DNA of 64,000 nucleotides from Bacillota bacterium (lineage in GTDB: Bacteria > Bacillota > Sulfobacillia > JAJYWN01), in the NCBI GenBank assembly GCA_021791495.1, contig JAJYWN010000015.1, forward strand, positions 1 to 64,000, in the 5' to 3' direction. The translations under genes were made by a program, and so were the position numbers. Every line of letters starts with the position of its first letter. Positions within the stretch are counted from its first letter, which is position 1. Shown here in pieces: positions 46,433-59,291 of this stretch. Below the pieces are notes generated by a model. The model searched no databases and was not told where the DNA came from. It worked only from the letters and a program-made list of their open reading frames with translations.

Positions 46433-46447
46433 GAGTAGCTGGGGCTG

Positions 46448-46475
46448 AAAAGCAAGGGCTCAAAAGCAAGGGCTC
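46448..46475 (+). repeat. Perfect tandem 14-bp duplication
   Basis: AAAAGCAAGGGCTC occurs twice in a row between the converging amidohydrolase and YcxB-like genes. No function is evident; it may reflect replication slippage. Confidence 0.8.
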
Positions 46476-46485
46476 AGACGAACGG

Positions 46486-49209: not shown

Positions 49210-49686
49210 CTATCGCCTCTCTAAGACACTGGCATCCGCGTGTGCTTCCACGATCGCGCTCTGACCAATGAGAACCGCGGTCAAGGTAGTTACCGGGATC
49301 CGCGCCCTGACGCATACTGTCGGCTGCCAGATGGGTTTCCCGGTCCACGCGTCACGATCCGGTTCCGCGGTCGACGGGTTATGGACCGTGACGCTAACCT
49401 CCGGTGCGACTCCGCCGCCTCTTGTTCCCGCCAGGTTGGCCTCGATCATCTCTGTGGCATCCTCTTTGGCGGGCCCCGCTAGCAGTACTCTTTTGCCGTC
49501 GGCCAACAGGGTGAGGTCCACGTCCTGGGCCGCCGCCAGCGCGGCGAAATCCACCGCCGTCTGTAGTTGATAGCGGGCCAGGAAAACCGCGCCCAAGTCG
49601 AAAACGATCGCCAAGAGGGCGAGCATCACCGGCAGAAACAGGACGACTTGAAGAGCAATCGCCCCGCGGCACCGCGGCAACCCCAC
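49210..49686 (-). CDS. TadG-like pilus assembly protein (short)
   Basis: A 158-residue protein with one N-terminal membrane helix preceded by RGAIALQVVLFLPVMLALLA, the TadG/TadE-like pseudopilin start. A periplasmic domain follows with FLARYQLQTAVDFAALAAAQ and a beta-rich end. Full TadG proteins are often over 400 residues with a von Willebrand domain, which is absent here. The GTG start follows AGGTGAGGT and lies 7 bases after the tadE stop. It is the last clear gene of the Tad operon. Confidence 0.75.
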   Translation of the reverse strand: MGLPRCRGAIALQVVLFLPVMLALLAIVFDLGAVFLARYQLQTAVDFAALAAAQDVDLTLLADGKRVLLAGPAKEDATEMIEANLAGTRGGGVAPEVSVTVHNPSTAEPDRDAWTGKPIWQPTVCVRARIPVTTLTAVLIGQSAIVEAHADASVLERR

Positions 49687-49693
49687 GACAGAT

Positions 49694-50062
49694 CTACCTC
49701 ACCTTCTCGCTTCGGGCGTGCGCCTCATCCGCGATTTGTACGCTTTCGCCCCAAAGCGCCCTGGTAAACGGTAGATACCAGCGATATTGGTAAACGACTC
49801 TGACCGTGACTGTTGTCCCATAAGAGGCCTCCTTGGGAGTTACCTCAATACTTGCCCGCGAAGGGTCCAGATTCCCCAATGCCAACAACCGCTCGATCTT
49901 GTCTTGGGTTCCCGGAGTCCGGCCGCCTTCGACCGCAGCCCGTCTGGCCCCGTCGCGCACCGCCGCGGCTAAAGCCAGCTTCCCGTCGAGGAGGAGGCCG
50001 ATCTCCACCATGGCAAAGAGAAGCATAAAGACAATGCCCGAGACCAGGACGAATTCGACCAT
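49694..50062 (-). CDS. tadE: TadE-like minor pseudopilin
   Basis: A 122-residue protein. MVEFVLVSGIVFMLLFAMVE is the conserved TadE membrane segment, followed by LALAAAVRDGARRAAVEGG, the usual post-helix motif. The ATG at 50062 is the only start in frame after the flp stop, with GCGGGAG upstream. Some TadE proteins have a few residues before the AMVEF motif; here they would have to be read from non-start codons. It helps assemble or anchor the Flp fibre. Confidence 0.82.
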   Translation of the reverse strand: MVEFVLVSGIVFMLLFAMVEIGLLLDGKLALAAAVRDGARRAAVEGGRTPGTQDKIERLLALGNLDPSRASIEVTPKEASYGTTVTVRVVYQYRWYLPFTRALWGESVQIADEAHARSEKVR

Positions 50063-50079
50063 GGCGGCTCCCGCCTCAG

Positions 50080-50280
50080 CTAACCGCCGGCCGTCGTCAG
50101 CTGAGTAATGATGTCCTGCAGTTTGGACCGCAGCGCTGCACCGAGGCTGCTGAGAGAAGAGATCAGGACCACTACGACCAGGGCCAGAAGGAGGGCGTAT
50201 TCCGTCGTGCTCGCTCCCTTCTGCTCCGTTTCCGTTTCGGACTTGTAACGCCGCCAGAGAGTCCAGGTCGGAAACCACAC
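50080..50280 (-). CDS. flp: Flp-type pilin
   Basis: A 66-residue prepilin. A charged leader ends at KGASTTEYALLLALVVVVLI: cleavage after the Gly leaves a mature N-terminus with the invariant Glu at position 5. A short C-terminal region (SSLSSLGAALRSKLQDIITQ) completes the Flp pattern. GTG 50280 has AAGGAGGTG 6 bases upstream. It is the only pilin gene seen and lies between the TadC and TadE genes. No prepilin peptidase is in the window. Confidence 0.9.
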   Translation of the reverse strand: MWFPTWTLWRRYKSETETEQKGASTTEYALLLALVVVVLISSLSSLGAALRSKLQDIITQLTTAGG

Positions 50281-50314: not shown

Positions 50315-51166
50315 CTACCATCGCGTACCCATGAAAGTCAAGATGTTCGGGAGCAAAGCCAAGACGAAAAGAGCCGGGAAGAGGAAAACCAGTGTACAGA
50401 CGGTTAGCAAGACCGGCAGCCTGCTCACAGTCGCCTCCATTTGCTGACGAAACATACTTCTCGCGACCGCCGCTTGAGCGGCCAGGATATCGCCGACTGG
50501 AGTGCCGAACGCTTCGGCCTGGGCCAAAGCCGTCACTAGGGCCTCAACTTCCGGCAAGCGTACCCGGTCGCACAGGTTCCTCAAGGCCGCGATAGGCCGG
50601 CGCCCGACGTACAGCTCTCTTAGGGCAACTCCAAGCTCGGAGGCCAGCTCCCCTTTGGCAAGTCTTGAGCAGACTTCCATGGCCTTTTCAAGGTTCAGGC
50701 CGGCAGTAGTGCAAAGCGTGAGTAAATCCACCACCTGAGGGAACTCGCGCCTGACCTTGGCTTGCCGGCGCCTGACTGTGTGGTTCAGAACTGCAGATGG
50801 AAGCCATGCACCGATGAAGGCCAAGCCGCAGGTGGGAAGCCACGGCTGGCGGCGGCTAGCAAGGGAGACGGCGAGCCCAACAGCGGACCCGGCTATGGCA
50901 AGAGCTACTCTGGCTCCGGACCAGCGTTCAACAGAAGACGGGTCTAATCCCGCCCGCAACACCTTCTGCCCGTCTTCGAGAGCCAGGGACCGCCACACTC
51001 TGTGCAAAAGGGCGATCCAACCCCGCTCCTGCACCGGCGAGTCCGTAGTTCCCGTGGCCAGGCGTTTCCACAGGCCGGGGCGGATGTGCACTGGGCTGCT
51101 TGCCCCCCCGGACAACCAAATGGTGGCACCCACGACGAGACTGATCAGAAGCGCCCCCCAGTTCAA
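50315..51166 (-). CDS. tadC: TadC-like inner membrane platform protein
   Basis: A 283-residue type II secretion F-domain protein. Membrane segments lie at the start (LNWGALLISLVVGATIWLS) and end (LTVCTLVFLFPALFVLALLP), with a cytoplasmic helical bundle between (REFPQVVDLLTLCTTAGLNL, AFGTPVGDILAAQAAVARSM). TTG 51166 overlaps the tadB stop in a TTGA junction. The frame running up to 51541 overlaps tadB and is rejected. It forms the assembly platform with TadB. Confidence 0.88.
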   Translation of the reverse strand: MNWGALLISLVVGATIWLSGGASSPVHIRPGLWKRLATGTTDSPVQERGWIALLHRVWRSLALEDGQKVLRAGLDPSSVERWSGARVALAIAGSAVGLAVSLASRRQPWLPTCGLAFIGAWLPSAVLNHTVRRRQAKVRREFPQVVDLLTLCTTAGLNLEKAMEVCSRLAKGELASELGVALRELYVGRRPIAALRNLCDRVRLPEVEALVTALAQAEAFGTPVGDILAAQAAVARSMFRQQMEATVSRLPVLLTVCTLVFLFPALFVLALLPNILTFMGTRW

Positions 51167-52068
51167 CCGGCATTCCCCAGATCCTGCGACTTCAGGAGGC
51201 GCCCCATGATCCAGGTACCCGTCATCCAGGAGAGCACCGCGTAGACGACGGCGAACCGCCCAGTCGGCGTCTGGTACAAAGGTGTCAGAGTTTCCGGATG
51301 CAGGACCACGAAGTACGTGGCCAACCCCAATGTAGAAATGGTGAGCACATCGGCGGTTAGCTTCGCTTCCGCCACCTTCGACTCCATCTCGCCCCGCATG
51401 AGCCTCCTCTCCCTCACGGTAGCCGCTGTGTGAGAGAGAACGCCGATGAGGTCCCCCCCAGTATGCCTTTGAACTTCCAGAGCTTGGACCAGGTAGGTTA
51501 GCTCCTGATGGCCGGCGTTTGCCGCCGCGGCCGCCAGGCAATCCGGTAACGGCCGCCCGGCCGAGTGTTCCTCGATGATGGTTCTGAACAGCCTTCCAAC
51601 CGGATCGGTGATACCTTCACCAACCGCCCGCAGTCCTTGAAGTAACGTCTGGTTCGCAGAGAGAGCGGCGGCCAGGAGCAAGATGGCTTGTTCCAGCTGG
51701 CGGCCAAATTCCAGTGCGGATCTGGCCGCCCGGTCGTGCCTCAACCTGCCTCCCGCGGCAAAGCCGACGCCTAGGCCGACAGCGGCTAGTGCAAGCCCTC
51801 CCACTGCTACACCTGCAATGGCGCCTAGCAGAGAGGCGAGGATTGGAAGTCTGTTGGCCGCGGCGAAATGCCTCAGGAATGCCTCTTCGCCGGACTGCCC
51901 GGAGCCCACCGTAGATGAAAGAACCGTCCTGCTGGCTTTTAAGCGGCGCCTCAGCAACCGTTCGGCCGGGACCTGCAATCCACTACCCTTCAGGGCAGAA
52001 GCAAGGAAGAGCACTGATGCGCCAGCTAAGAACGATATGGCCATCGGGAGACTGGGTCGAAGGTCCAC
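51163..52068 (-). CDS. tadB: TadB-like inner membrane platform protein
   Basis: A 301-residue type II secretion F-domain protein. The N-terminal membrane helix is MAISFLAGASVLFLASALKG, with a second pair around residues 78-105. The F domain includes LEQAILLLAAALSANQTLLQ and TGGDLIGVLSHTAATVRERR, followed by two C-terminal helices. The GTG start is 3 bases after the tadA stop; ATG 52044 is possible. It partners TadC beneath the TadA ATPase. Confidence 0.88.
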   Translation of the reverse strand: MDLRPSLPMAISFLAGASVLFLASALKGSGLQVPAERLLRRRLKASRTVLSSTVGSGQSGEEAFLRHFAAANRLPILASLLGAIAGVAVGGLALAAVGLGVGFAAGGRLRHDRAARSALEFGRQLEQAILLLAAALSANQTLLQGLRAVGEGITDPVGRLFRTIIEEHSAGRPLPDCLAAAAANAGHQELTYLVQALEVQRHTGGDLIGVLSHTAATVRERRLMRGEMESKVAEAKLTADVLTISTLGLATYFVVLHPETLTPLYQTPTGRFAVVYAVLSWMTGTWIMGRLLKSQDLGNAG

Positions 52069-52071
52069 AGC

Positions 52072-53442
52072 TCAGGCACCACCCTTCCATCCAAGGAACG
52101 CCAGCTCGTCATCTTTCAGACCAGTCCGGCGGGCCCTCTGGACCAACGTTTCTGACGGCGGACATCCGGTACACCGCGCGAATTGCTCAGGGATGTTTCC
52201 TCCACCAGGGTCCCAGCGGAAAACGGGAACGACCCGTCCGTCCGAATGCTTGCCGGTCTCTCCAGCTTTTTGAACCAGTCCGACGCTGGTCATTTTCCGC
52301 GACCCTGAGGCCAACCTAATCATGACTACAACCACATCCACAGCCCCTTGCACTTGCTCCCGGATGACCCCGTGCGGCAGCGGTTCCCCAGCCATCAGGA
52401 CCATGTTCTCGAGCCGGTTTAGGGCGTCCAAGGCCGAGTTGGCGTGCAGTGTGGACAGGCTCCCCTCGTGCCCTGTGTTCAGAGCGTTCAGGAGCTCGAA
52501 GGCCTCCGGTCCACGGACCTCACCAATGATCAAACGGTCCGGCCGCATCCGGAGACTGTTTCTAACCAGCTGGCGGATGGTGATCTCTCCTTTCCCCTCG
52601 ATACTGGGCGGCCTGGCCTCCAGGGAGACAACGTGTCTGCCTGTCAAATGGATCTCGGCTGAGTCTTCGACCGTAATTACCCTATCCTCGGCATCCCCCA
52701 GGTCGTTGACCAGCGTATTGAGGAGAGTCGTTTTTCCGCTGCCGGTGCCACCGGCAATAATGAGGTTGAAATGGGCCCTAACACATATTTGCAGGTAACG
52801 GGCCATTTCACCGGAAAGAGTCCCCCTCTCCACAAGGTCACCCAGAGACCACGGACGTGGCGAGAATTTGCGTACGCACAGCGTTGGCCCGCCGACCACT
52901 ACAGGCGGAACTACCACGTTCACCCTCGAGCCGTCGGGCAAGCGGGCGTCCACAAACGGGGAGGCCTGATCAACACGCCGTCCGATGGGCCCGACGATCC
53001 TCCCGATGATGTCGTTGAGATGCTCCTCATCCCGGAACACCACCTGGGTGAGTTCCAGCCGCCCCTTTTTCTCCACGAAAACCTGGTTTGGGCTGTTCAC
53101 AAGGATGTCGGTTATGTCTGGGTCTCTAAGTAACGGATCCAAGGGACCATACCCGATGATCTCACTGGTAACGGCTTCCGCCAAGGCCTCCCTGGTCATG
53201 CGCTGGACGAAAAGCCCCTGTTCCGCAAGGGTCCGCAGGATTACACCTCTCAGATGGTTGCGGCCGGCCGAATCCACTCTGGCTTTGGTCAACAGGTCCG
53301 CGTGCTCCCGAAGGATATGTGTTTGCACGGACCGCACTACGGTCCAGAAACTGGCGGAACTACCGGCAGTCTCCGGGGCGGAGCCTCCATCGGACCTGTG
53401 CTCGAGACTGCTCTTCTCCAACCTGGTAAGCAGGCCGGACAT
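52072..53442 (-). CDS. tadA: TadA/CpaF pilus assembly ATPase
   Basis: A 456-residue secretion ATPase. Residues 84-200 form the N-terminal domain with EIIGYGPLDPLLRDPDITDI. Walker A is GGTGSGKTTL (231-240), then EDSAEIHL (Asp box), RMRPDRLIIGEVRGPEAFEL (Walker B) and GHEGSLSTLHANS (His box). It powers Flp pilus assembly. The C-terminal 60 residues extend beyond the usual end with no motif. The start shares a base with the tadZ stop (TAATG), so translation is coupled. Confidence 0.95.
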   Translation of the reverse strand: MSGLLTRLEKSSLEHRSDGGSAPETAGSSASFWTVVRSVQTHILREHADLLTKARVDSAGRNHLRGVILRTLAEQGLFVQRMTREALAEAVTSEIIGYGPLDPLLRDPDITDILVNSPNQVFVEKKGRLELTQVVFRDEEHLNDIIGRIVGPIGRRVDQASPFVDARLPDGSRVNVVVPPVVVGGPTLCVRKFSPRPWSLGDLVERGTLSGEMARYLQICVRAHFNLIIAGGTGSGKTTLLNTLVNDLGDAEDRVITVEDSAEIHLTGRHVVSLEARPPSIEGKGEITIRQLVRNSLRMRPDRLIIGEVRGPEAFELLNALNTGHEGSLSTLHANSALDALNRLENMVLMAGEPLPHGVIREQVQGAVDVVVVMIRLASGSRKMTSVGLVQKAGETGKHSDGRVVPVFRWDPGGGNIPEQFARCTGCPPSETLVQRARRTGLKDDELAFLGWKGGA

Positions 53443-54725
53443 TACTGCCCCGGCCCCCTCCGCCTGGGGAAGGGAAGTCTGGACACCCGGGTAGGGGGTG
53501 CGAAGGAAAACGCCGGCGATAGGATCCGTGCCAACTGCTTGATGCCGGACATGAATGGATTATCCTGATTGACGGCTCCAAGGGGCCTCCCTTCTAGGAT
53601 GGATTCCTCAACCTTGACCCTGGCCTCGGGAATATCGACAGAAAGCCCTGTTCCAAGGAAACTGGCGACCCTGGAAGTAGCCAGCCCCACCGAATGGTCC
53701 TGACGGTTGACGACCAAGATGATCTTCGACCTCTCGATCGACTCTAGGCGGGCCAGTATGTCGAGGAAAAGGCGGCACCGTCGGACGGATGCGGCGTCCG
53801 GCGTGCAGACGAGGGCTATGTGCGTGGCGGCCTCCAGTGTGTCCAAGACGTGATCAGCGGCCGCTTCCGCCGGAAGGTCGACGACTATGACCGGGAACTG
53901 AGCTCGTAGTCTGGCAAGGGCGCGCCTGGCGTGTTCAGGCCGGACGAATTCCGCCAGCTCCGGTTTGGCCGGTGAGGAAAGGAAGCGTAGCGTGGTGGGC
54001 GCATGGACGTGCAGGAAATCGTCCAGATTCGGACGGTCGTTCTCAAGGCCATGGATCGAGTCTGCTATGGTCGGCTGTGACAGGATATCTAGATGCACGG
54101 CGGCGTCTCCAAAGGCCAAGTCCAAGTCCACCAGCGCTACCTTGTTCGGAAGGTGTCTTGCTAAGAAGCAAGCCAGGTTCACCGCCACGACGGTCTTGCC
54201 CGTCCCTCCTTTTGGGCTGAATACCGCGACCATGGTTGGTAGGAGGATATCACCGGGACCTGGGCTACCGGGCCCCGCGATAACCGTGCCTGAATTACCT
54301 GTGGCCAGGGCCCTCAGGTCTCTCATCCCGCTCTGAGCCGCGGTCGACGTTTGAGGCACGGTGGTTGCAGTCCCTGGAGCTAGGGATACGCTCTGCATGC
54401 CCAATGATGGGAAGAGCGGCGGTTGCCCCAGGCGCTCTTGACTTATCGCCGGCCGCTGCTGGTGCAAGCAGATGATTTCTAGAGCCGGCTGAATGGAACG
54501 TGCCCTCTCCATAGTCGCTTCCAACGCCCCATTTCCGATAAGGCCTGTGTTCAGAATGAGGACATCCGGCTTGATGTCAGCGACCATCTGCAGGCACGCC
54601 GCAATGTCAGGGACCTGGCCTATGACCTCGATAGCCGGGTCTTGGGCAACACGATGAGCAAGCTCGGGTTCATCATTGAGAAGCAGCACCCGTTTTCGGA
54701 CAGCCACAAAGGCCGTAGACACCAT
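53442..54725 (-). CDS. tadZ: TadZ/CpaE-like localisation ATPase
   Basis: A 427-residue protein. The N-terminal 110 residues resemble a response-regulator receiver (KRVLLLNDEPELAHRVAQDP, KPDVLILNTGL) without a clear phosphoacceptor set. The C-terminal MinD/ParA-like domain has VFSPKGGTGKTVVAVNLACF (deviant Walker A) and ALVDLDLAFGDAAVHLDILS. Such proteins place the pilus machine at a pole. ATG 54725 is preferred over the GTG that overlaps the cpaB stop because of spacing from AGGAGAGG. Confidence 0.9.
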   Translation of the reverse strand: MVSTAFVAVRKRVLLLNDEPELAHRVAQDPAIEVIGQVPDIAACLQMVADIKPDVLILNTGLIGNGALEATMERARSIQPALEIICLHQQRPAISQERLGQPPLFPSLGMQSVSLAPGTATTVPQTSTAAQSGMRDLRALATGNSGTVIAGPGSPGPGDILLPTMVAVFSPKGGTGKTVVAVNLACFLARHLPNKVALVDLDLAFGDAAVHLDILSQPTIADSIHGLENDRPNLDDFLHVHAPTTLRFLSSPAKPELAEFVRPEHARRALARLRAQFPVIVVDLPAEAAADHVLDTLEAATHIALVCTPDAASVRRCRLFLDILARLESIERSKIILVVNRQDHSVGLATSRVASFLGTGLSVDIPEARVKVEESILEGRPLGAVNQDNPFMSGIKQLARILSPAFSFAPPTRVSRLPFPRRRGPGQ

Positions 54726-54727
54726 CC

Positions 54728-55432
54728 TCACCTCTCCTGTGGCAGAAGATCTTTGAGACTAGCTGACACTGCGGTGCTTTCCTCGGAATCTGGAGGGGCA
54801 ATCGCCAGGTAAACGTGGCCTTGTTCTAGGCAAAGGGCCAGAATCGAGCATTCAGTGGGAGTGACGCGGACAAGCACAGCGGCCATGCCAGAGATATTTC
54901 GCGGGTGCCCGGGGCGGTACAGGGAGTTGCCTTCTTCGTCACGCAGGTCCAGAACGGGCACACTTCGAAGTATTCTGGTCGCCTGGCCGGCACCCGTCCG
55001 CTGGCTGCTGCCGGCAAAATACACGTCAACCAGATCCCCCGGTTCCAGCGCCCCGCCGCACGCCCTCGAAGCGGTCACCGGGATGGAGAACACCCTTGTA
55101 TCGGCCTCAAGATACCCCTTCCACGCAGTCTGTGGGTTGCCCCCTGCCAGCTTTGAGGGCATGAAGGTTTCTCCCGCGAATACCGCCGTGCGGGTGTACT
55201 GCCCCACCACATCGTCGGGTCGCGTCGTTACCCCTGGCAGGAGTCCACGTGCTGGAGTCTGCACCATCCGCAGGAAAGAAGGCTCTACCTTCGTCATGGG
55301 CGGTATGTCGAAAGCCGCCACGGGAATGGAGACGGTAGCTTCCCAGGAAGACAGATACCCATAGGTGAGCAGCGCCGCCAGTAGCGCCATGACTATCGCC
55401 AACGGTTTGTAATTAAGCCTGAATCTAATCAT
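54728..55432 (-). CDS. cpaB: CpaB/RcpC-like pilus assembly protein (SAF domain)
   Basis: A 234-residue exported protein with an N-terminal membrane anchor (PLAIVMALLAALLTYGYLSS). A SAF domain follows (VAAFDIPPMTKVEPSFLRMV, DDVVGQYTRTAVFAGETFMP) and an RcpC-type region (FSIPVTASRACGGALEPGDL, VDVYFAGSS). It is the first gene of the Tad operon. ATG 55432 has AAGGTGG upstream; the frame to 55510 has no site. It is divergent from the SLH lipoprotein at 55682, so the 250 bases between carry promoters for both. Confidence 0.87.
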   Translation of the reverse strand: MIRFRLNYKPLAIVMALLAALLTYGYLSSWEATVSIPVAAFDIPPMTKVEPSFLRMVQTPARGLLPGVTTRPDDVVGQYTRTAVFAGETFMPSKLAGGNPQTAWKGYLEADTRVFSIPVTASRACGGALEPGDLVDVYFAGSSQRTGAGQATRILRSVPVLDLRDEEGNSLYRPGHPRNISGMAAVLVRVTPTECSILALCLEQGHVYLAIAPPDSEESTAVSASLKDLLPQER

Positions 55433-55681
55433 GCTTTTCCGCCACCTTACCATTGTCTGGAAGGTTGGTTTAACCTTAACACGTTCTCCACAACTTGTCA
55501 CTGTGAACATGTCGACAAATTCCTTAGTATTTCGGCAAAGTAGCCTGCGAAGGGTAGATGATAGCTGGCCTTTTTAATGCAAGCCGGCAGAAATTCACTC
55601 GTCGAATTGGCAGCGGCAGGAATTACGTCTCGGCCCGGTAACCGGAGGTTGCGAAGACTTTCGACGGGAGGGATATGGCAA

Positions 55682-56692
55682 TTGCTCAATACGATTCCAA
55701 CCAAGCGTGTGGCCGCCAGATCGGCACCGCGGTGGGCCGCAATGCTTCTTCTCGTGGTCCTTTCGGGCTGCGTCGCCCGGGCTGCCCCCCTTGCCCCGCA
55801 GAACCGGGCAACCCCAGAGACTCACTGGGCGAAGGAGTACGCCGAGAACCTCGCCGAGATGGGAGTGCTAGGGGAGATACCGATCGACCTCGATCAGCCT
55901 GCACCACGGGGCCTGGTGGTGGCCATGACTGTCAGGGTGTTAGGGCTCCCTTTGGGGGCTATTGCACAGAAAGTCTTCTCGGACGTGGACAAGGCCTACT
56001 CGTACGCTGGGGAAATCGCCGCCGCCAAGCAGGTCGGCCTGGTGAAAGGAGAACCGGACGGTTCGTTTTCCCCAAGCAGGCCCTTGTCCCGTGCCGAATT
56101 GGCGGCCATTCTCCGCCGCGGGTTCGAACCATTCATCGTGCCGCCCGCAGGGGACCTAACCCCGTTCCTCGACCTTCGGAGCCATTGGGCACTGGCAGAC
56201 GTCATGTGGTGCGCTCGCGGCGGCCTGATCACCGGTTTCCCGGATTACACCTATGGACCAGAACAGCCATGCACTGTCGGACAGGTTTCTAAAGTCCTAC
56301 GCTTGGCCATGCGCCAGTCGCTGAACCCCGCCACTCTACCATCTGATGAGCTGTTGATTGCCACTGTCGTGGAACATAACTTGCGTTTCGGGAGAGCTTT
56401 CGACTCTACTCCCTGGGACTTCGGGCCACTACTACAGACAGTCACTGGTTACGCTCACCGAAACCTGAGCGCGAACACGGCATGGCTGCTCCGCCAGCAA
56501 CAGTCCGGCCGGTCTTTTAGATATGAAGCCATGAGCACTGAAGGGCGAGTGATGGATAAGACCGCTTTCGAGGCAACCGTCCTAACATCCGAGTCGATGA
56601 AGGAGTTTGTGGAGGGCTTCCCGCACGACGTCTCACAGACTGACGTGTACTTCCTTCGGAAGACCTCCGCCGGCTGGATGATTTTCCGGTAA
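55682..56692 (+). CDS. SLH-domain lipoprotein
   Basis: A 336-residue protein with a signal segment ending WAAMLLLVVLSGC (lipobox). Two SLH modules are clear: VFSDVDKAYSYAGEIAAAKQ with GEPDGSFSPSRPLSRAELAA, and FLDLRSHWALADVMWCARGG with FPDYTYGPEQPCTVGQ. A C-terminal 110-residue region is unrecognised. SLH domains bind pyruvylated cell-wall polymers, so the protein is probably an envelope anchor. TTG 55682 has GGGAGGG 9 bases upstream. It is followed by another SLH protein and is divergent from the pilus operon. Confidence 0.8.
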   Translation: MLNTIPTKRVAARSAPRWAAMLLLVVLSGCVARAAPLAPQNRATPETHWAKEYAENLAEMGVLGEIPIDLDQPAPRGLVVAMTVRVLGLPLGAIAQKVFSDVDKAYSYAGEIAAAKQVGLVKGEPDGSFSPSRPLSRAELAAILRRGFEPFIVPPAGDLTPFLDLRSHWALADVMWCARGGLITGFPDYTYGPEQPCTVGQVSKVLRLAMRQSLNPATLPSDELLIATVVEHNLRFGRAFDSTPWDFGPLLQTVTGYAHRNLSANTAWLLRQQQSGRSFRYEAMSTEGRVMDKTAFEATVLTSESMKEFVEGFPHDVSQTDVYFLRKTSAGWMIFR

Positions 56693-56777: not shown

Positions 56778-59291
56778 GTGTCGGGACACGGGTACCTGCG
56801 GCGCGGGCACAGACCAATGGTGATCACACTGGTCTTTCTGCTGTTCCTCAACCTCTCCGGAGCCAGCCAGGTCTGGGCACGCCAGATCGTCGACAAAGAT
56901 ATGGGATGGCTCTCGCCTCCGCCAACCCACGAGGATGCGATAGAGCCAAGAAGCCACGGCGGATCGGCGCCTGACGCGGACCGCGCCGCCGGGACGGGAA
57001 TAGACAGCCGGTCCAGGTGGGTCTTGTCCTATGGAGCCCCTTACGTCGCCGCCAGTTGGACCGTTGAGTCAGGGGGATGGTGCTACCGCCGCTATGAGTA
57101 TCGCCGTGCGGTGTTCCTTGGCGACCGGTTCGCCTATGACGAGTTCGTAGGCACCTGGGACACCGTGGGCGGCCCGATATGGAGCTATGGTCCCGAACGC
57201 CTGGACTCAGCAGAGCGCGTTGAAGCTGGGAACCAGTGGTTTACCAAGAAGACGTACAGCCGTCCGGCATATCGTTATGGGGTCTTCCAGCGCTACGAAT
57301 ATGTACGGACCACACAGGAGGCGGGTGGGCCCATATGGACGTACGGACCAGAGTTCCTGGCTGAAGAAGGCACCGTAGATCGAGAAAACCTGTGGTACAA
57401 AGTAGAGACCTATCGCCGGGCGGCGTACAAGTATGGAGTCCTCCAAGGCAACGAACTGGTGCGGGTGGAGGAATCCCCGGGCGGCCCGGTGTGGAGCTAT
57501 GGCCCCACCTTTGTCTCTTCGGAGGCGCGAGAAGAACGCGGTAATACCTGGTACATCGTGAGGTACATGAGCCGGCAGGTCTTCTACCACGGGCAACCGC
57601 ACCACCTGGAAGCTGCCGGCAAGAGTGAACTACCCGGTGGAGTGATCTGGAGTTACTCCGAACCCAGAGTCCTAAGCTCCAGCGTCTTGCCCCTATCGCC
57701 TCCGCACGTGGAACTCGTCACCGAGTTCGGACGGGACGTGTTTCACTATGGGCAAAAAGTGCGAACCGAACCTTTGCCGGAGTTACGCGAAGTGACGGAT
57801 GCCTGTGCGGTCGACACCGGAGAACTGCAGGTATCCCGGACTTATACCAGACAAGAACCGGGCGGTCGGGACATCGTGGTGACGGAGTTTCGGCGTCCAA
57901 TTTACCATAGCAACCAGTCCTACGGTAGGTTTGTGGCCGGGTATCGTGACGAACCGGGGGCAACTCAGACGGCTCTGATCGGAGCGCAAAGTGGGTCGGG
58001 GGCGAGTTCGTCGGGCCACAACGTTTCCGACAGCAGCTCCACCTCCGGTTCCGTCGTTAAGAGGGCCGCTCGGGTCATTAACTCCGTTGAGGAGTTCGAC
58101 GACAAAGAGGATGTCTTAGCGTCAAACTACCTGGCAGACATTAAGGTAGCCCTAGGCAAAGGCATCATCTTTGGGAAGTTCAACGACATGACCGGAGAGC
58201 GGCCCTACGACCCAGAATCGCTGATTACCTTGGGTGAGATGGTGAACATCCTGGCCAGAAACTACGGCGGGACAGGACTCTCCGGATATGAAGCTCGCGA
58301 TTTCCTGGTCGGGTTGGGGGTGCCCGTTCGCGGGAATCTCGACGGCGCCCTGAGCCTAGGCCAGCTCGACGAGTTGGCCCGATCTTTGGCCAACCGCGGA
58401 GCCGGCGCCGCTGACCTGCTTGTCCTGCGACAGGTCCGGGATGGGACCTTGCAGGCCGATGCGGGTGGGATAACCAGAGCTCACGCCGTCGCCATGCATC
58501 ATGCCGACCCTGCCCAGACCGCATCATCACCGCAGCCCACCGCAACATCGCTCGGCGATACGCCTGGGGAACCCAGTCCGGCCGCACCGGTCTCGCCGAT
58601 TACCGAGAACGCCCCCCCTGAGACGACGGCGTCGCCCGGGCAAACGGATCGGAGTGGGGAGACGGCGGTTGTAGTACCCTCGGCACCGGGAGCCTCAAGC
58701 CCAATGCCGGTTCCGGGTCCAGACGGGGATGTGGCCGGCTCCGACGAACCCCTGAACCACCCGCCCGTCGCTCTGTTTGAGGTGACATCACCCATCATTG
58801 CGGGTCGCAGCGTCCAATACGTCGATAGGAGTTACGACCCCGACAATGGCGACTGGATCGCTGAGGCTTCATGGACGGGGAAGGTGGATCGCTTTAGTAC
58901 CCCAGGATCCTTCCGAGTAAGCCTGAAAGTTAGAGATAGCCACGGTGCGTGGAGTGAGTTGTTTGACCGCGATGTCCTTGTGGTACCCGCGTTGGTGGTC
59001 CAGGCGGAGGTCGAACCAGCCAAGTCCCTGCAGGGTGGATCGGTGAAGATCCTAGCAACTGCCAATAAGGCGGCTCAACGCTGCCTGGCCGAAACACCTT
59101 GGGGCGAGGTCGAAATGGCTGGCAATGGTGAATCGTGGTCGGCGGAGATTCTGGTCCCTGAAACGGGGGCGCTTGGGGAATACGACATTGTCGTCACGTC
59201 TTACGCCGGAGACGAAGAAGCCATTGATACACCGGTTCTGGCAGTCGTCGAAGACCCTAGACGGAGCCTCTTGATCACCTTGACCGACTAG
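56778..59291 (+). CDS. Exported SLH protein with five 52-residue repeats and a PKD-like domain
   Basis: An 837-residue envelope protein. A signal peptide (MVITLVFLLFLNLSGASQVW) is followed by five repeats of exactly 52 residues: GGPIWSYGPE and variants start at residues 131, 183, 235 and 287, and a weaker LSYGAP unit precedes them. Each contains aromatic YxxxxYxRxAYxYG strands. Then an SLH-like segment (DIKVALGKGIIFGKFNDMTG), a Pro/Ser/Thr-rich linker (about 575-655) and a PKD-like fold (PPVALFEVTSPIIAGRSVQY, KVRDSHGAWSE). The GTG start is weakly supported; ATG 56817 is an alternative. Probably a cell-wall-bound surface protein. Confidence 0.75.
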   Translation: MSGHGYLRRGHRPMVITLVFLLFLNLSGASQVWARQIVDKDMGWLSPPPTHEDAIEPRSHGGSAPDADRAAGTGIDSRSRWVLSYGAPYVAASWTVESGGWCYRRYEYRRAVFLGDRFAYDEFVGTWDTVGGPIWSYGPERLDSAERVEAGNQWFTKKTYSRPAYRYGVFQRYEYVRTTQEAGGPIWTYGPEFLAEEGTVDRENLWYKVETYRRAAYKYGVLQGNELVRVEESPGGPVWSYGPTFVSSEAREERGNTWYIVRYMSRQVFYHGQPHHLEAAGKSELPGGVIWSYSEPRVLSSSVLPLSPPHVELVTEFGRDVFHYGQKVRTEPLPELREVTDACAVDTGELQVSRTYTRQEPGGRDIVVTEFRRPIYHSNQSYGRFVAGYRDEPGATQTALIGAQSGSGASSSGHNVSDSSSTSGSVVKRAARVINSVEEFDDKEDVLASNYLADIKVALGKGIIFGKFNDMTGERPYDPESLITLGEMVNILARNYGGTGLSGYEARDFLVGLGVPVRGNLDGALSLGQLDELARSLANRGAGAADLLVLRQVRDGTLQADAGGITRAHAVAMHHADPAQTASSPQPTATSLGDTPGEPSPAAPVSPITENAPPETTASPGQTDRSGETAVVVPSAPGASSPMPVPGPDGDVAGSDEPLNHPPVALFEVTSPIIAGRSVQYVDRSYDPDNGDWIAEASWTGKVDRFSTPGSFRVSLKVRDSHGAWSELFDRDVLVVPALVVQAEVEPAKSLQGGSVKILATANKAAQRCLAETPWGEVEMAGNGESWSAEILVPETGALGEYDIVVTSYAGDEEAIDTPVLAVVEDPRRSLLITLTD

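Follow-up and report, generated by a model that had tools for sequence, protein, structure and literature searches.

How a Tad pilus passes through the cell wall where there is no secretin is a question to which we know of no settled answer. The closest described machine is the Tad alignment complex of P. aeruginosa, with a dodecameric conduit built of RcpC (CpaB); in the published model, a β-hairpin at the C-terminus of RcpC joins a β-sheet of the secretin RcpA and completes it (PMC12307814). Another account calls the secretin specific to diderms and notes its loss in monoderms (PMC6668835). The other relevant group of described proteins is the SLH surface proteins, whose SLH trimers bind a pyruvylated wall polymer via the TRAE motif, Trp13 and Gly29; SpaA has the variants TVEE and TRAQ of this motif (PMC6081394). 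Among the matches listed in the open-access literature, no paper links SLH proteins to Tad/Flp pili or treats the family described here, and the accessible text of PMC5072692 draws no link between SLH proteins and these pili.

The window (the whole stretch of 64,000 nucleotides that was analysed) encodes a protein of 837 residues that belongs to a recurrent family of Tad-linked wall proteins with a conserved terminal tail. In order from the N-terminus, this protein consists of a signal peptide, repeats, a Ser/Gly linker, a helical SLH-like domain, a Pro/Ser/Thr linker, a PKD-like domain, an Ig/macroglobulin-like domain and the tail. Its parts and the gene upstream of it are given below, where G030 and G006 denote two other genomes of the class.

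55577..56692, forward strand: upstream SLH protein of 371 residues, with a Pfam SLH match
56778..59291, forward strand: repeat-bearing, Tad-linked surface protein (open reading frame with a GTG start, 837 residues; signal peptide at about residues 1-35, read by eye)
57012..57167, forward strand: repeat unit 1 (residues 79-130), without the GG motif
57168..57323, forward strand: repeat unit 2 (residues 131-182), GGPIWSYGPE
57324..57479, forward strand: repeat unit 3 (residues 183-234), GGPIWTYGPE
57480..57635, forward strand: repeat unit 4 (residues 235-286), GGPVWSYGPT
57636..57791, forward strand: repeat unit 5 (residues 287-338), GGVIWSYSEP, alignable to the units of G030 and G006
57792..57947, forward strand: degenerate unit 6 (residues 339-390), recognisable mainly via relatives
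58077..58499, forward strand: SLH-like domain, below the Pfam cut-off, kept in five close relatives
58752..58988, forward strand: weak PKD-like domain, missing in five close relatives
58989..59243, forward strand: Ig/macroglobulin-like domain
59259..59288, forward strand: conserved C-terminal tail, RRSLLITLTD

A strict period of 52 residues spans residues 79-390, which corresponds to about six units with the consensus GGPxWSYGPPxVxxxxxVExxNxWYLVxxYxRxVYxYGxxQxxE. When this region is aligned with itself at an offset of 52 residues, the score is 207 and 67 of 260 positions are identical; the best shuffle offset in 500 shuffles scored -66, which places the period far beyond chance. The even spacing reported by the first-pass annotation is exact, the motif GG[PV][IV]W[ST]Y falling at residues 131, 183, 235 and 287. 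The same annotation spoke of five exact repeats, a description that has to be given up, as the copies have diverged to an in-register amino-acid identity of 2-48%. Units 2 and 3 are the closest pair (48%), followed by unit 4 in comparison with units 2-3 (35-37%), unit 1 with units 2-4 (23-25%), unit 5 with units 1-4 (10-17%) and unit 6 (2-8%). At the DNA level, units 2 and 3 share 57% identity, and the 52-residue array is absent from the output of Tandem Repeats Finder run with the default threshold; a recent tandem duplication of DNA is ruled out by these two results. The only array that the program lists in the window lies at 46442-46476 (a 14-base unit in 2.5 copies).

The aromatic character of the repeats, also pointed out at first reading, is pronounced: F, W and Y make up 16% of residues 79-390, compared with 5% of the remainder of the protein. 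It should be noted that aromatic richness alone does not show binding of the repeats to sugars or pilus fibres. Searches with the whole protein gave no match to a repeat family in Pfam (E 0.2 or better), NCBIfam or PHROGs, and no PDB sequence matched significantly (best E 0.38 with the repeat region and 1.1 with a profile of the unit). These searches rule out a known repeat family as the identity of the unit, which had not been recognised at first reading either; judged by its sequence, the 52-residue repeat is an undescribed type.

The distribution of the repeat is narrow. Strong matches to the unit profile occur in 3 of the 154 genomes of the class (the window genome G000, G030 and G006), and all three carry the repeat in one syntenic gene, with six copies in the window protein, three in G030 and two in G006, as read by eye. 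The final two units of the window protein align to the final two units of both relatives, and for this reason the units upstream of them may have arisen by an expansion specific to the lineage. Among 398 genomes sampled from the phylum, the window genome alone gave a strong match. Weak single matches in two further genomes of the class (G143 and G064, E 0.0019 and 0.0052) and weak short matches in three others of the phylum sample (G359, G278 and G431) consist of one short stretch each and were attributed to chance (E 3.6e-4 to 0.006 for the five). Two of the weak-match loci, L100 and L107, revealed no array to a hand-made pattern. A pattern search of the genome contigs with the repeat region returned 52 pattern matches and no relatives, and a search of the contigs with the family alignment returned four loci.

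The structure prediction proposed in the first-pass annotation was made with AlphaFold for the repeats only. The model is all-β, with long strands, and has a mean pLDDT of 76 (mostly 80-93 over units 1-3); its pTM is 0.34, and the underlying alignment consists of three sequences only. Foldseek superpositions have an rmsd near 60 Å, which suggests that the repeat model is extended or differently arranged. Foldseek and VIA-align both gave weak matches to single β-propeller blades, with Z at most 3.7 over 30-49 residues; VIA-align gave no row at Z of at least 5, a result that does not by itself show the fold to be novel. The earlier expectation of a rod or solenoid stands insofar as the predicted module is all-β and long-stranded, and fails insofar as the weak matches point to lone propeller blades rather than solenoids.

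These matches and the copy counts of six, three and two led us to consider whether the module could be a closed six-bladed β-propeller lectin, the relatives with two or three blades closing the ring by oligomerising. The window repeat does resemble a blade in being multi-stranded, antiparallel and about 50 residues long, most of the rows of the fold searches are what we take, from their names, to be propellers, and the full model matched AofleA, a fungal fucose lectin, at probability 0.2. Yet the blade matches are short as well as weak, strands of at least 14 residues are long for blades, unit 6 is degenerate, no sequence match is significant, and a closed ring is not evident in a model of such low pTM, so that a propeller lectin is, in our opinion, very improbable. 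In view of the all-β model, its pTM and the restriction of the matches to weak single blades, the module is best called simply a predicted β-sheet repeat.

The SLH segment attributed to the protein at first reading holds only as a distant likeness. PF00395 gave no match to this segment of the window protein; among the six segments scanned, three reached 13.5-14.7 bits, all below the Pfam cut-off of 20.8 bits, and a profile-profile comparison of the SLH-like domain with classical SLH segments gave a probability of 18%. In the alignment, read by eye, ITLGE and ITRAH stand at the TRAE positions, at which SpaA itself varies. The SLH-like domain may anchor the protein to the wall. The gene directly upstream (55577-56692) encodes a clear SLH protein, with a PF00395 match of 78.2 bits, over the cut-off, and its homologue directly precedes the family gene in all five close relatives. 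The window's order, G030 and G006 have what may be described as a split form, i.e., an SLH gene with a second gene behind it that encodes an SLH-like domain and the tail. The C-terminal half of the upstream protein, after SLH, is conserved in the syntenic partners (which end in GWMIFR, GWSIYR and TWLIYR) and appears NTF2-like by eye, SLH being the sole Pfam match in the protein. The window genome has 71 SLH domain matches in total, and the organism is thus rich in SLH-type surface proteins.

A PKD-like domain had likewise been named; the resemblance to PF18911 is present but weak (12.7 bits, compared with a cut-off of 27). The C-terminal Ig domain of the window protein is modelled as an Ig-type β-sandwich with pLDDT 75-91; Ig domains and the macroglobulin domains of complement C3 are among its Foldseek matches, at a probability of 1.00 and an E of about 1e-4.

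On the strand opposite to the SLH gene pair, the window contains the following Tad genes, which bears out the divergent arrangement described in the first-pass annotation.

54728..55510, reverse strand: CpaB/RcpC (SAF and RcpC domains), at the head of the divergent Tad operon
53442..54731, reverse strand: CpaE/TadZ-like ParA-type ATPase
52072..53442, reverse strand: TadA/CpaF ATPase
51163..52068, reverse strand: TadB (T2SSF domain)
50315..51541, reverse strand: TadC (T2SSF domain), true start probably internal to the frame
50101..50223, reverse strand: Flp pilin match, 85-codon frame (PF04964, 32.3 bits, cut-off 32.2)
49694..50278, reverse strand: TadE-like protein, true start probably internal to the frame
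49210..49698, reverse strand: TadE/G-like protein

Elsewhere in the window genome, a second CpaB (contig C77, 2411-2758) has a stronger Flp pilin match close by (C77, 388-519), and for this reason G000 probably has a second Tad locus (C77, 388-2758).

The divergent layout of family gene and Tad operon recurs across the class, which gives this link better support than it had at first reading. Of the 154 class genomes, 43 contain matches to a profile built from the six closest proteins, most of them covering the C-terminal Ig domain only, with or without the tail, and these genomes yielded 44 family loci, the window included. At least three of six Tad genes lie in the stretch read at 33 of the 44 loci, and at 27 the family gene stands head-to-head with cpaB. 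The remaining 11 loci, with fewer than three Tad genes near, are of several kinds: L070 is a contig of 3.9 kb; L090 has two Tad genes near; the proteins of L083, L086, L087, L088 and L091 have different ends and could be Ig proteins with no relation to the family; and at L023, L067, L071 and L072 the tail is present and there is no Tad gene near. Three of the last (L067, L071 and L072, from G062, G061 and G063 of one genus) end in NLTFILSE or DLTFILSE and have no Tad gene in 19.5 kb. The fourth, at 9177-10658 of L023 (G004), combines PKD-like and Ig regions with the tail VRVALTD, has no Tad gene near and carries a different Tyr/Trp/Thr-rich stretch at the position of the repeats.

CpaB, recognised by its RcpC domain, is found in 143 of the 154 class genomes (137 over the cut-off). 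We sampled a further 31 CpaB loci from 28 class genomes that the first profile had not matched; eight of them feature a divergent gene whose product has a tail-like end, and each of these eight products scores over the Pfam cut-off for SLH. The other 23 showed no such divergent gene by the criteria used, some of the stretches being short, and some of them resemble Tad operons of a second, conventional kind. A later search added two more members of the class, G008 and G027, where the family protein has a tail-like end and the Tad operon is divergent from its gene. A family gene of the class also stands at L112. Outside the class, G176 has the same layout, with an N-terminus that is SLH-like by eye and the end NVKVFLSG; the layout is absent from L164 and L165, two other phylum matches that were opened. 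The usual family member combines SLH (matched at E 0.01 or better in 29 of the 38 proteins scanned) with Ig domains, and its C-terminus is the conserved tail L-x-F-x-L-[TS]-D.

These loci bear on the simplest account of the protein, i.e., an ordinary S-layer-associated surface protein or adhesin that shares its locus with Tad genes through the co-regulation of attachment and makes no contact with the pilus machine. Aromatic-rich repeats are common in adhesins, the genome is rich in SLH domains, and the four loci with a tail and no Tad gene near are what this account would lead one to expect. It sits poorly with the head-to-head placement beside cpaB, which is repeated in many families within the class and in a single genome from outside, and with a tail whose conservation is stricter than a general adhesin would need. 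We regard it as unlikely, but as an alternative to be taken seriously.

The conservation of the tail was assessed in 42 Tad-linked proteins. Counted from the C-terminus, position -7 is L or V in 30 of them, -5 is F in 26, -3 is L in 34, -2 is T or S in 33 and -1 is D in 20. A loose tail pattern occurs in 32 of the 42, compared with 7 of 398 other open frames from the same loci, and a strict pattern in 16 of the 42, compared with none of the 398, these background frames being the longest non-overlapping open frames of at least 200 residues and not verified genes. The sample is not blind: most of the 42 were found by a profile that takes in the tail in its final columns, and eight were picked after their ends had been seen. 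By subtraction, the loose pattern is present in 26 of the 34 that exclude those eight, and it is also present in 5 of 10 fetched proteins not counted as Tad-linked. In some linked members, e.g., L028, L065, L074, L077 and L079, the tail is missing or not terminal.

Several features of the tail make it look like a docking peptide. The end is conserved, and the linker that joins it to the Ig domain varies in length. In G030, the Ig domain is lost and the tail is kept, directly after a proline-rich linker. In the model of the window protein, the last eight residues have pLDDT below 50, compared with 75-91 in the Ig domain, a weak indication given that the model rests on five sequences. A terminal β-strand with a remote repeat module would also suit a strand-exchange tip adhesin, and the divergent operon has flp and tadE genes; one could therefore picture the protein as a minor or tip component of the Tad pilus itself that displays its repeats far from the cell. 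The SLH matches in 29 of the 38 family proteins point instead to the wall, and we saw, by eye, no prepilin-type N-terminus, which makes a place on the pilus quite improbable.

The window genome (97% complete, in 81 contigs) gave no secretin match and no Omp85 match, whereas among 14 control genomes secretin was matched in six and Omp85 in seven; a single membrane is therefore likely for this bacterium. The reading that we favour, tentatively and with somewhat less than even confidence, is that the protein is a secreted, wall-associated accessory of a secretin-less Tad pilus, which docks on the machine by its tail and extends its repeats outward. The tail, L-x-F-x-L-[TS]-D, would dock as an added β-strand, and the most likely partner would be CpaB/RcpC, the gene for which heads the divergent operon. 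The SLH-type region, the partner SLH protein or both would tie the complex to the wall, and the N-terminal 52-residue β-repeats would form a lineage-specific extension that points outward close to where the pilus leaves the cell, serving as a spacer or perhaps an adhesive surface. The protein may in this way help to hold or guide pili at the cell wall. By analogy with the described complex, a secretin-less system that keeps CpaB and misses RcpA would leave a position for an outer partner; the family protein is a natural candidate for it, being encoded beside cpaB, putatively wall-associated and equipped with a C-terminal strand that would be exposed, and the modelled hairpin of RcpC in the sheet of RcpA shows how a strand might be added here. 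A more far-reaching form of this proposal, which we consider doubtful, is that secretin-less Tad systems own a wall-anchored exit collar, made of an SLH/Ig protein that is encoded head-to-head with cpaB and whose tail strand replaces, on CpaB/RcpC, the secretin N-domain of two-membrane bacteria, and that a few lineages have grown an undescribed, outward β-repeat module on it.

Compared with described SLH surface proteins (PF00395; SpaA of Paenibacillus alvei, Sap of Bacillus anthracis), the family is alike in the SLH matches of most members and of the upstream gene; the window protein differs in having its own domain below the cut-off, with ITLGE and ITRAH in place of TRAE. We know of no SLH protein with repeats and a tail like those of the window protein. 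The Ig domains resemble FlgD_ig and CHU_C of Pfam, which match 20 and 19, respectively, of the 38 family proteins; these are shared Ig-type folds, and the window protein itself has no match to them at E 0.01. In NCBIfam, the 38 proteins gave weak partial matches to FlgD, T9SS sortase, Lsa66 and invert_tail, names that were dropped, as all fell below the curated cut-offs in the ten proteins for which positions were available. The last of these (NF058595, 'lipo-invert putative C-terminal anchoring domain') is weakly similar to the last Ig domain, with 7 of 34 C-terminal segments matching at E 0.1 or better (best 5.9e-8); it differs in that its match to L063 reaches 28.9 bits, below the cut-off of 37, and spans residues 539-571 of 584, stopping before the tail.

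The 52-residue repeat adds an apparently undescribed, β-rich surface module of variable copy number to these known parts, and a recurrent neighbour of cpaB with wall-binding domains and a docking-like tail is a testable candidate for a missing part of the machine. A further comparison is that with the RcpC/CpaB-RcpA alignment complex (PMC12307814). The two differ in that the window genome has no secretin match and the proposed partner, an SLH/Ig protein, has no relation to the secretin; they are alike in that the family gene neighbours a retained CpaB, and the outer partner would fill the same place.
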